Part shown: one piece after another, positions 607-26,106 of the stretch
How the letters are laid out: the number at the start of each line of letters is the position of its first letter
Numbering within the stretch: position 1 is the stretch's first letter
DNA from: Caldilineales bacterium
Lineage (GTDB): Bacteria; Chloroflexota; Anaerolineae; J102
Assembly: GCA_024102915.1 (NCBI GenBank)
Contig: JAGFJG010000044.1
Coordinates: 1 to 64,000 of the forward strand
Length of the DNA stretch: 64,000 bases
Direction: 5' to 3'
Program-made: the position numbers and the translations under genes
Notes under the pieces: model-generated
What the model was told of the DNA's origin: nothing
The model's database searches: none
Seen by the model: the letters and a program-made list of their open reading frames with translations, nothing else

Positions 607-1116
607 ATGCGCATTGCCGATATCCGACTTCTCTACGAATACAACGCCTGGGCGACCGACCGTATCCTGCAGGCGGCAGCGGGTCTCAGCCAGGAGCAGT
701 ATGTGGCGTCGTCGTCGTCGAGTTGGGGCAGCATCGCCGAAACGCTCACCCATGCATTTGAGGCTGAGCACATCTGGCGAGTGCGTTGCCAGGAAGGACG
801 CTCGCCCACCTCGATGGGAACAGCGGCCGATTACCCCGATGTGGCATCATTACGAGTCGCGTGGCAGGCCGAACGCGAGATCATGAACGCGTATCTGGCC
901 GGGCTGAGCGACGCCGATCTGGACTCCGTCATTGACTTCAAAACCACCAAAGGCGTGTCCCATCGCATCCCACTTTGGCAAATCCTTTTGCACGTGCTCA
1001 ATCACGACACGCAGCATCGCAGCGAGGTCGCCATGGCCCTGACTGCGCTCGGCCACTCGCCCGGCGATCTCGATCAGATCCTCTTCTTCCGCCAGCTTGA
1101 GGCCGGGGGTAGTTGA
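607..1116 (+). CDS. DinB family protein
   Basis: A 169-aa four-helix-bundle protein of the DinB/YfiT superfamily, usually metal-dependent enzymes such as thiol (bacillithiol) transferases or proteins induced by DNA damage. The expected three-histidine metal site is visible: His49 in LTHAFEAEH, and His133 and His137 in LNHDTQH. The N-terminal EYNAWATDRIL matches the usual YNxWA start of the family. GGAG about 10 bases upstream supports this ATG. The stop codon lies inside the first heptad of the hairpin repeat at 1111-1182. Substrate unknown. Confidence 0.85.
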   Translation: MRIADIRLLYEYNAWATDRILQAAAGLSQEQYVASSSSSWGSIAETLTHAFEAEHIWRVRCQEGRSPTSMGTAADYPDVASLRVAWQAEREIMNAYLAGLSDADLDSVIDFKTTKGVSHRIPLWQILLHVLNHDTQHRSEVAMALTALGHSPGDLDQILFFRQLEAGGS

Positions 1117-1182
1117 AGGATGCAGGTTGAAGGTTGAAATGGCAGGCTCGCATCTTCAACCTTCAACCTTGAACATTCAACT
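1111..1182. repeat. Heptad-periodic inverted repeat (TTCAACC type)
   Basis: The left arm at 1111-1138 is four heptads ending GGTTGAA, GGTTGAA. The right arm at 1155-1182 is four heptads beginning TTCAACC, TTCAACC. The inner 15 bases of each arm (1124-1138 and 1155-1169) are perfect reverse complements, and the outermost heptads AGTTGAA and TTCAACT also pair. The first heptad contains the TGA stop of the DinB gene. There is no T-run after the hairpin, so a standard terminator is not indicated. Confidence 0.85.
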
Positions 1183-1218
1183 TTAGCCCCCGCCTCCATT
1201 CCCGGCTATCATAAATGG

Positions 1219-16383: not shown

Positions 16384-16418
16384 CTTCTTCAACTTTCGAC
16401 CTTCAACCTTCAACAACC
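16384..16418. repeat. Heptad-periodic element (AACCTTC type)
   Basis: Five heptads in register (CTTCTTC, AACTTTC, GACCTTC, AACCTTC, AACAACC) fill the gap between the convergent PIG-L and SMR genes and run into the SMR stop codon at 16418-16420. It shares CTTCAACCTTCAAC with the right arm at 1155-1182. Confidence 0.7.
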
Positions 16419-16927: not shown

Positions 16928-17650
16928 ATGAGCGCCACCAATCCCTTCGCCGGCAAACTGATCCTCGTGGTCGATGACGAGCCGCGCATGATCAAGTTCG
17001 TGCAGTTCAATCTGGAACTGGACGGCTTTCGCGTGATCAGCGCTGAAAATGGCCTGCAGGCGGTTGACAAAGTCCGCACCCAACTGCCCGATCTGATCAT
17101 CCTGGATGTGATGATGCCGCAAATGGATGGATTTGAGGCGCTCAAACGCATCCGGGTTGTGTCGGATGTGCCGGTGATTATGCTCACGGTCAAGGATGAG
17201 GAGGACGACAAACACATCGCCTTCTCCGCCGGAGCCGATGATTATCTCACTAAGCCGTTCAGCCCACGGGAATTGGGGGACAGAGTGAAGGCCGTGTTGC
17301 GCCGGGTGTCCGGGCCGTCATCGACGGCTCAGGAGGAATTGCGAGTCGACGACCGGCTGCAAATCGATTTCGCCCGCCGTGAGGTGCTGGTGGATGGCGA
17401 GCGCAAGAACCTGCGCCCGACCGAATGGCGGCTCCTCTACCACCTGATCCAAAACGCCAATTGGGTGGTGCCCTCGGAGATTTTGCTGCAAAAGGTCTGG
17501 GGTTATGAATATCAGGACGATGTGCAACTGTTGCGGCTGTATATCGCCTACCTGCGCAGCAAAATCGAGATCGATACCGGCAATCCGCAATACATCCTCA
17601 CCGAGCGCGGGGTAGGGTATCGTTTCGCCATGCCGGAAGCGGCGGAATAG
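16928..17650 (+). CDS. Response regulator, OmpR/PhoB family (orphan)
   Basis: A 240-aa regulator. The receiver domain has VVDDEPRM, the phosphorylatable Asp60 ([15 protein letters not shown]), and the conserved TKPF Lys. The DNA-binding winged helix follows ([15 protein letters not shown] ... VWGYEY ... RGVGYRF). No histidine kinase lies next to it, so the partner is elsewhere or it may be served by the kinase at 20217-21572. Transcription appears leaderless from the promoter at 16893-16921. Confidence 0.93.
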
Positions 17651-17656
17651 AATCGG

Positions 17657-17747
17657 TTCCGAGTTCCGAGTTCCGAGTTCCGAGTTCCGAGTTCCGAGTT
17701 CCGAGTTCCGAGTTCCGAGTTCCGAGTTCCGAGTTCCGAGTTCCGAG
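17657..17747. repeat. Perfect tandem array, 13 x TTCCGAG
   Basis: The heptamer TTCCGAG is repeated thirteen times without a single substitution over 91 bases, 6 bases after the stop of the response regulator gene. It is the purest heptad array in the window and the likeliest to vary in copy number by slippage. A degenerate relative with GAGTTCC units is at 25827-25861. Confidence 0.97.
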
Positions 17748-17783
17748 AACCCGTATTGATTCCGGGTGAGAGATTTCCCGCGG

Positions 17784-17825
17784 CTATTCAACTTTGAACC
17801 TGCGACTTTGAACCCCAAACTGGAG
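17784..17825. repeat. Heptad-periodic element (ACTTTGA type)
   Basis: Six heptads in register, including ACTTTGA twice, ACCTGCG and ACCCCAA, end exactly at the base before the recF stop codon (17826-17828). Together with the array at 17657-17747 they occupy most of the 175 bases between two convergent genes. Confidence 0.7.
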
Positions 17826-19031
17826 TTACCCAACCTCCGGCTCGATCACCTCGTCCATCCGCCCCTGGTGCACGTGCAGCCGCTGGGCCGTTGCCAGCAG
17901 TTCGGGACTGAAATGATGCCAGTCGGTGGTGGTGACAATGGCTTGCGGGGCAGTGGTCAGGGCATCCTGCAACATCGCCCGGCGCTTGGCGTCCAGTTCC
18001 GACATCACATCGTCCAATAATAGCAGCGGGGCGACGCCGGCTGTGGCCGTCATCACCACTACCTCCGCCATTTTGCTGGCCAGGGCGGCTGTACGCTGTT
18101 GCCCGCGCGAGCCGAAACTGCGCAGGTTATGTTCGCCCAGATAGAAACCGAGATCATCGCGGTGCGGCCCGGACAACGTCATGCCTGCGGCCAGGTCGCG
18201 GCGACGATTGGCAAGCAGATAGGCCAGAAATGTCGCCCGCACCGCCGCCACCGCGAAGGATTCATCCCGATTTGCGCGGGTGACGCCGCCCGAATTCCGG
18301 CCGGGCTGAGCGGGATCAAAACTGGGTTCGTAGCGCAGTTTCAGGCGCTCATAGCCACCGCTGAGGTCGAGATGGCGCAGGCTGGCCTCGGCGTCGAGGT
18401 CCTTGATCAGCCGGTATCGTTGGGCGATGATCAGGCTGCCTGTTTCGGCCAATTTGTCGTCCCAAAAACGCAATTGCTCGCCCGCATTGCCCCCGTTTTG
18501 CAGATTGCGCAACAGGGCGTTGCGCTGCTCAACCGTCTTGTTGTACTCGTTCAACGCCCGGCAATAGGGCGGGTCCATCTGGCATAGGGCGATGTCCAGA
18601 TAGCGGCGGCGGACGCTGGGCGAGCCGGAAACCAGGTCTACATCCTCTGGCCGGAATAGCACGACCGGCATCAAGCCGACCAGGTCGAGGGCGCGGCGCG
18701 GCGCACCATTGATCCGCACCTGCTTACGGAACCCGCCATTGCCCTTCGCCGGCAGCAGCGTGATATCCACCCGCTCCAATCTCTCCCCTTTTTTTAATTC
18801 CGCCGAGAGTCGGGCGAACGGCAGATCACTTTCCTGAGCCAGCCAGTTCACTAACTCGGTGTCGCTGCCAGAACGAGGCGAACGGCTGGTCGCCAGCACG
18901 GTGATCGCCTCCAACAGATTGCTCTTGCCCTGGGCGTTTTCGCCCTGAACGATGCTCAAACCCGGCGGTAGATTGAGTTCCAGCCGGGCATAATTCCGAT
19001 AGTTCGTGAGCGAGAGACGTTGCAGGTGCAT
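17826..19031 (-). CDS. recF: DNA replication and repair protein RecF
   Basis: A 401-aa SMC-like ATPase that binds single-strand gaps and helps load RecA with RecO and RecR. Walker A is GENAQGKSN at about residues 34-42, the signature motif is SGPHRDDLGF, and Walker B is LLLLDDVMSELD. The N-terminal MHLQRLSLTNYRNY is the family hallmark. There is no dnaA, dnaN or gyrB nearby, so this is not the usual replication-origin cluster. A TATAAT box on the minus strand (19045-19040) sits 8 bases before the ATG, suggesting a very short leader. Confidence 0.95.
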   Translation of the reverse strand: MHLQRLSLTNYRNYARLELNLPPGLSIVQGENAQGKSNLLEAITVLATSRSPRSGSDTELVNWLAQESDLPFARLSAELKKGERLERVDITLLPAKGNGGFRKQVRINGAPRRALDLVGLMPVVLFRPEDVDLVSGSPSVRRRYLDIALCQMDPPYCRALNEYNKTVEQRNALLRNLQNGGNAGEQLRFWDDKLAETGSLIIAQRYRLIKDLDAEASLRHLDLSGGYERLKLRYEPSFDPAQPGRNSGGVTRANRDESFAVAAVRATFLAYLLANRRRDLAAGMTLSGPHRDDLGFYLGEHNLRSFGSRGQQRTAALASKMAEVVVMTATAGVAPLLLLDDVMSELDAKRRAMLQDALTTAPQAIVTTTDWHHFSPELLATAQRLHVHQGRMDEVIEPEVG

Positions 19032-25002: not shown

Positions 25003-25794
25003 TTAGAAGCTGGAGAAGGAAGAGGGTGTAGTTGTTGTGTTGTTATTGGGCGGGGTGACCTGAGGGCCGAATCCATGGCCGCGCATCCCTCCGAAACCAG
25101 GCATGCGACCGAATCCGCGCATGCCGCCAAAGCCGCGACCGGTATTGCTCAAGAGTTGATCCGCCTGTTCCTGGGTGATGACGCCAGCATCGACAGCGCC
25201 CTGGATCGCATCGCTGTACAGCGAGCGCACGTTATCTTGTAAGCCCTGCTCTTGCAGGTACTCTTGCAGATTCTGCATGGCCTTCATCTGGTCGGCCTGT
25301 TCCTGGGTGATGCGGCCGGCTTCGACAGCGGCGGCCACGGCTGCGTCCTTAGCTTCGGTCTGTGCAGCTTGCAGTTCGTCAACCGAGATGTTCAAAGCAT
25401 CAGCCAAAAGGGCTTTCATGTCGATGGTGTCGCTTCCAAAGAACCTGAGGTGCAGGCCCTTGCCCATCAGCCCGAACGCACCCTGGCGCTCTTTCAGGGC
25501 GTCGGCCTGCGCCTGGGTGATCAGGCCATCGGCGACGGCCTGGTCGATGGCTGCTTCGGCAGCCTGTTGGTGGGCGGCCTGCAATTCTTCACTGGTGATG
25601 CCCAGGGCTTCGGCCAGATAATCATCGTCTGCTGCCTGGGGGCCGGCGATGCCAAAGCCGCCGCGTCCGCCCATGCCGCCCGGCCCGCCGTGTGCGGATG
25701 CAATTTGGGGAGCGGCGATGGCTCCAACTGCGGCGAAGGCCAGTACGGCTGCGGTGGCGGCCAGCCCGCCAATCCATTTCTTAGTCAGTTTCAT
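25003..25794 (-). CDS. Secreted protein with three ITQ-EQAD helical repeats
   Basis: A 263-aa protein with a signal peptide (about residues 1-34, ending IASAHG) and a Gly-rich stretch. Three repeats follow, of the form LxxALxIsxxELQAA ... A(V)xxGxITQxQADxL, near residues 60-102, 128-171 and 192-217. The tail is rich in Gly, Arg, Phe and then Thr/Asn. Similar repeats occur in small secreted actinobacterial and Chloroflexota proteins of unknown role. AGGAGA 8 bases before ATG 25794 fixes the start; the longer frame runs into a heptad repeat. No function can be assigned. Confidence 0.75.
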   Translation of the reverse strand: MKLTKKWIGGLAATAAVLAFAAVGAIAAPQIASAHGGPGGMGGRGGFGIAGPQAADDDYLAEALGITSEELQAAHQQAAEAAIDQAVADGLITQAQADALKERQGAFGLMGKGLHLRFFGSDTIDMKALLADALNISVDELQAAQTEAKDAAVAAAVEAGRITQEQADQMKAMQNLQEYLQEQGLQDNVRSLYSDAIQGAVDAGVITQEQADQLLSNTGRGFGGMRGFGRMPGFGGMRGHGFGPQVTPPNNNTTTTPSSFSSF

Positions 25795-26036: not shown

Positions 26037-26106
26037 GTTTCATGTGTCACGTGTCATGTGTCATGTGTCAGGCGGCTTCAACCTGAAACCTTCAACTTTC
26101 AACTAT
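26037..26106. repeat. Ten heptads in one register (GTGTCAT then CAACTTT type)
   Basis: Seventy bases are all in one 7-base register. Units 1-5 are GTTTCAT, GTGTCAC, GTGTCAT twice and GTGTCAG. Units 7-10 are CAACCTG, AAACCTT, CAACTTT and CAACTAT. The consensus changes mid-array while the period holds. The element ends 8 bases before the metallophosphoesterase ATG, leaving no room for a Shine-Dalgarno sequence. Confidence 0.8.

Follow-up and report, generated by a model that had tools for sequence, protein, structure and literature searches.

What fills the gap between a response regulator gene and recF, two convergent genes whose stop codons enclose a long perfect array of a seven-base word followed by a second, irregular array? 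The question arises in the window, by which we mean the whole 64,000-nucleotide stretch analysed here, taken from an 86.8-kb contig of a Caldilineaceae-like MAG (5.33 Mb, 198 contigs, 97.9% complete, 6.8% contaminated) whose genus consists of this one genome; its relatives are Caldilineae (Chloroflexota), and among named RecF matches the closest come from Chloroflexota and Caldilineae MAGs. On the reading that we think probable, a heptad inverted-pair element is dispersed through the genome and the feature is a copy of it, the arms of the element having been changed by slippage after its spread. With gene calls made by our own script, Pfam domains bear out the convergent flanks: the response regulator gene on the plus strand (16928..17650; Response_reg PF00072 and Trans_reg_C PF00486) and recF on the minus strand (17826..19031; SMC_N/RecF PF02463) point at each other, and both end, while neither starts, at the array.

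The left array is by far the strongest in the window. Tandem Repeats Finder delimits it at 17656..17747 on the plus strand, with period 7, 13.1 copies, 100% match, and no indels, so that the thirteen perfect TTCCGAG copies of the original prediction are present at 17657-17747, their number being that of the assembled MAG, in which an error of array length is possible. We describe this 5′, GT-rich arm as a perfect, expanded run of thirteen GTTCCGA units, a word that was also searched in the rest of the genome. A literature search for strings of the repeat or its peptides gave no match. The arm is followed by a 39-base spacer (17748..17786) that is unrelated to either array and contains a small inverted repeat of 5 bp, ACCCG...CGGGT, at 17749-17753/17763-17767.

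The second array, at 17787..17825 on the minus strand, ends at the recF stop codon, as predicted (TAA on the minus strand, 17826-17828). It is CA-rich and runs through the words TTCAACT, TTGAACC, TGCGACT, and TTGAACC, the reverse complement of the arm reading GTTCAAA, GTCGCAG, GTTCAAA, GTTGAA. Six degenerate heptads had been proposed here, and a repeat does precede the recF stop, although its period is clearly 14 bp and weakly 7 bp: at about 17781-17826, shifts of 7 and 14 give self-identities of 38% and 50%, respectively, and ACTTTGAACC is the sole sequence repeated exactly, at 17791 and 17805 (a distance of 14 bp), with no further copy on that strand of the window. These values indicate about four heptads in a 14-bp form, and not six clear ones. 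The second array matches the 5′ arm as an inverted partner with p=0.036, as judged against about 3000 pieces drawn at random from the genome, and its words TTGAACC and TTCAACC are found again elsewhere in the genome. Since the inverted match is modest alone, the status of this array as a second, 3′ arm rests mainly on the order that such arms follow genome-wide.

That order emerges from a recurrent build, in which a GT-rich heptad arm and a CA-rich arm of the opposite strand are separated, in this order, by a short spacer, each arm usually having about four heptads. A significant inverted partner lies within 130 bp of 14 of 40 arrays, where about 2 would be expected, and direct partners number 6. 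Among adjacent arrays no more than 80 bp apart, with MITE copies removed, GT-rich precedes CA-rich 15 times and the reverse occurs 0 times; nine of these ordered pairs lie in the sequence in which the order was first noticed and six in later sequence, including that of a different genus. The window pair fits this build, which supports the view that both of its arrays belong to one kind of element. The accompanying idea of a young perfect state and an aged degenerate one finds no such support, as the second array has different words and the opposite strand type, in keeping with the fifteen-to-none order; it is best read as the opposite arm of a pair, not as an aged copy of the first. Genome G226, from another family of the class, has at L300:5968-6032 a clean hairpin of four AGTTCCG units, TAATT, and the complement, its word being that of the window, and at L299:10113-10164 of the same genome GACCGCC is followed by GGCGGTC, an order that looks reversed by eye and means that the rule may not be absolute.

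Three further heptad features are found in the window. At 1112..1184 a GTTGAAG-type arm of four units, a 14-nt spacer, and a CTTCAAC-type arm of four units form a canonical 4+4 inverted pair, whose inverted match score of 19.2 was reached by 0 of 60 random flanks. A lone CA-rich array (TTCAACTTTCGACCTTCAACCTTCAAC) at 16388..16414 appears in the period-7 array count, and at 26037..26103 a GTGTCAN-type GT-rich arm precedes a TTCAACC-type CA-rich arm, as seen by Tandem Repeats Finder and in the sequence. The window also holds an imperfect 18-bp tandem repeat (25078-25137; 3.3 copies, 69%), which is probably coding, its period being a multiple of three.

Such arrays are numerous throughout the genome. 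A first 1.0 Mb contains 40 period-7 arrays and another 0.64 Mb contains 21, making 61 in 1.64 Mb, which extrapolates to an estimated 200 or so in the whole genome; shuffling the 1.0 Mb with an order-5 Markov model leaves 2 at the threshold that gives the 40 real ones. Periods 5, 8, 10, 11, and 13 account for 0, 11, 1, 1, and 1 arrays, respectively, over the 1.64 Mb, and the high counts at multiples of three and at 14 are attributable to coding and to the harmonic, respectively. Head-to-tail 7-bp units, the mark of bacterial heptanucleotide simple repeats, are therefore present beyond chance. The modal arm length is about 4 units, with a detection floor near 3; most arrays of the genome have about four, but other loci bear longer arms, perfect or nearly so, of 9 to 14 units. 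In a sister genus (G017, L282-L289) heptads are much denser, with 28 in 160 kb, words of the forms CGTGNNN and CACGNNN, arms longer than those of the window's genome, and one array of about 36 units; it would be a good model genome for the element. More distant Chloroflexota carry an 8-bp repeat of the ACTTTGCG type just after recF (L050, L052), which suggests octads of similar style elsewhere.

One rival account of these arrays is plain local slippage: a 7-bp duplication arises by chance and lengthens, steps of 7 bp being those in which the polymerase slips most readily, with neither spread nor a paired build. In its favour, many bacteria have heptads as their most frequent long simple repeat, a polymerase footprint of 7 nt has been suggested (Mrazek 2007, cited in PMC4679880 and PMC4692102), and an arm as long and perfect as the 13-copy one resembles slippage growth. 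However, slippage predicts neither the GT-then-CA order nor the occurrence of shared words at loci of one genome that lie far apart. In the window's genome the fraction of unit pairs within one mismatch is 0.086, against a null of 0.033 ± 0.005 from genomic 7-mers of the same composition; this value counts both arms of an element separately, and about 15 such pairs among 2556 explain about 0.006 of it at most. Within G017 the corresponding figures are 0.131 and 0.033, whereas between the two genomes the excess is small (0.037 vs 0.021), all of these being taken from a test without MITE copies, by which a first test had been inflated. When a word motif is trained on one portion of the genome, it predicts the words of the remainder (3.18 vs 1.58 ± 0.23) and not those of G017 (p=0.64). 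Because words are common within a genome and little shared between genera, slippage alone is not enough and some spread or copying within the genome is needed; as the sole cause it is already strained, and we regard it as unlikely.

A second perfect GTTCCGA array, of nine copies, lies at about C180:102199 in the same genome, directly before an ORF read as 5-enolpyruvylshikimate-3-phosphate synthase, and is followed, as in the window, by a CA-rich heptad arm. As a conserved word of the whole class GTTCCGA was rejected, as it was found in 7 of 396 genomes and its reversed control in 3 of 396. A finer grammar of four fixed and three variable positions, suggested by eye from CAGTNNN and CGTGNNN, was likewise dropped: column permutations gave p=0.15 overall and 0.96 in a second data set, and its strong raw z-scores stem from duplicated variant units.

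Five sister genomes have recF and the same regulator in convergent orientation, their stop codons being separated by 0 to about 21 bp with no heptads, so the filling of about 175 bp was either gained in the lineage of the window or lost repeatedly. We infer insertion as the putative origin of the element, on the basis of array-free family orthologues that are 62-72% identical and not of a near-identical strain. The array-free orthologous sites also bear on the idea that the array is a transcription terminator or a regulatory site for the convergent genes, to which its location between two convergent stop codons would be suited. No terminator-like site, with a stable stem and a T run, was found at the locus, there is no Rfam match, the region as a whole folds as RNA no better than shuffles do (z of -0.06 and -1.44 for the two strands), a result that speaks against the inverted-pair reading as well, and about half of such arrays lie inside called genes; such a role is therefore barely credible to us. 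Most likely the element in the window has no coding or regulatory task and is a gap filler between two convergent stops, where extra DNA costs little.

The arrays are 4.6-fold enriched outside called genes (19 in 157 kb, vs 22 in 840 kb inside), so that 22 of 41 lie within called ORFs, two or more of which may be over-extended ORF ends. In the window's genome, in-frame heptad inserts are found in PfkB, GlpA, GlpB, aconitase-like, sulfatase, and methyltransferase genes, several of them being genuine insertions into conserved enzymes. Alignments with sister genera place those of PfkB, GlpA, and the aconitase-like protein in linkers, and the same linkers hold different heptad inserts in some sister genera and none in others, which implies that these linkers have been repeatedly invaded or refilled. 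A polyketide/fatty-acid synthase-like gene (L025:13250-13909) carries heptad inserts between its repeated carrier-protein-like segments, with one and the same insert in more than one linker. In being read in-frame within protein genes the heptad inserts are like the Rickettsia palindromic elements, which are palindromic as well, although those have a recognisable consensus sequence and lack a 7-bp periodicity.

The dispersal of heptad inverted pairs could also mean that they are strict mobile palindromic elements of the MITE or REP type, with the heptad arms as terminal inverted repeats moved by a transposase. A GACGAT heptad hairpin is in fact carried by a MITE-like element that is about 190 bp long and occurs in high copy, with 371 pattern matches against 27 for a reversed control; it runs from TAAACTGA(A/C)GTCA to TGACTTCAGTTTA, has an apparent TA target duplication and the heptad hairpin in its middle, and was seen at L162, L165, L204, L221, and other loci of the genome outside the window. 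Heptad pairs can thus hitch-hike. However, lone heptad pairs exist without those ends and share no common terminus (L187, L189, L202), and a search of the window for the MITE ends found none; definite ends with a target-site duplication, as in a MITE, could not be made out at the lone pairs. A candidate transposon in L137 with heptad ends 4 kb apart was rejected, as each end proved to be a MITE-like element of its own with its own heptad hairpin. The REP/RAYT systems, defined by a GTAG- or CGTC-tagged hairpin and a cognate Y1 transposase (PMC3733652), do not describe the heptads either, as the Y1/RAYT gene on contig C163 sits among other palindromes. REP-like palindromes, GAATTCGTTGGCTTA...AAATCCCTGCAGGGATTTGCCGCCGACAGC, stand on either side of this RAYT-like gene (L307, C163:38516), with two copies downstream, and are unrelated to the heptads. 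Two genomes, G005 and G019, have heptad arrays although neither a Y1 transposase nor RVT_1 was detected in them. A strict mobile element is, in our judgement, improbable.

The arm order might instead reflect chromosome breaks whose two ends were given filler before being joined: GT-rich heptads added to each 3′ end would make the product read GT-then-CA. Such filling would explain not only the order, but also the differing words of the two arms, the absence of fixed ends, and the scattered, tolerated sites. Telomerase-like addition by a reverse transcriptase was discarded as unlikely, however, as the genome has no Pfam RVT_1 match, and Ku-dependent end joining because Ku was found in 0 of 20 family genomes; any break-filler system would need other enzymes, and we consider it very improbable. 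A broader possibility, to which we would give an outside chance, is that an undescribed process adds or copies heptads with a fixed strand sense, GT-rich toward the middle and about four units per side, in unrelated bacteria, with species-specific words and without reverse transcriptase, Ku, or RAYT, in which case the heptad "simple repeats" of several phyla would form one class and would not be slippage products.

Returning to the dispersed inverted-pair element, we picture its history as follows. The element would be inserted or copied into tolerated sites such as gene gaps and loops, spreading related words within one genome, and single arms would then grow or shrink in 7-bp steps by slipped-strand replication. 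In the window, the left arm would have expanded to its 13 perfect copies and the right arm would have retained its mixed words, and the thirteen identical copies are likely to have come from slippage growth of a perfect arm.

The paired four-unit build is already known from Xanthomonas (PMC4692102), and what we describe here is a variant of it. The GGGAATC repeats of Xanthomonas have mostly four units, form 70 and 75 convergent inverted pairs, are mainly intergenic with a minority inside genes, and differ in length between related species (PMC4692102). The 7-bp units, the four-unit habit, the convergent inverted pairs, and the mainly intergenic location are the same in the genome of the window, where the modal arm has 4 units (the left arm of the window, 13) and the G-rich strand points inward genome-wide (15:0), the window pair alone giving p=0.036. 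The difference is that Xanthomonas uses one G-tract word tied to G-quadruplexes, which its authors discuss, finding no function for the repeats (PMC4692102), whereas the genome of the window has many words, in a genus-specific set, and frequent in-frame linker inserts. The quadruplex explanation does not carry over: a GGG or CCC is present in the unit of 8 of 79 arrays, GTTCCGA has no GGG, and since most words here cannot form quadruplexes, the four-unit habit needs another cause.

Other heptad systems resemble the element in part. The cyanobacterial heptanucleotide repeats (STRR; GGGGA(C/T)T of Nostoc) are likewise intergenic and dispersed, and a CCCCAAT word of the window's genome (L016) is close to them, but Nostoc heptads form few inverted pairs (PMC4692102). 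The TAACTGA repeats of the Beggiatoaceae are dispersed intergenic heptads, sporadic across phyla and with up to 43 copies in some; they have one word, lie mostly just before start codons, and are presented without a description of paired arms in the portion of the source available (PMC4679880). Within the same phylum, the (GATAGRA)n satellites of Chloroflexus aurantiacus are a dispersed heptamer family of one species, also with a single word, and paired arms are not described in the accessible part of that report (PMC6749651).

The heptad inserts described above show one way in which protein linkers acquire short low-complexity peptides. Heptad repeats in bacteria are usually ascribed to polymerase slippage or G-quadruplexes. 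The fixed arm order, the arms of about four units, the genome-specific words, the linker inserts, and the mostly non-quadruplex words argue that something else places them, and these traits give measurable predictions for any pair of closely related strains.
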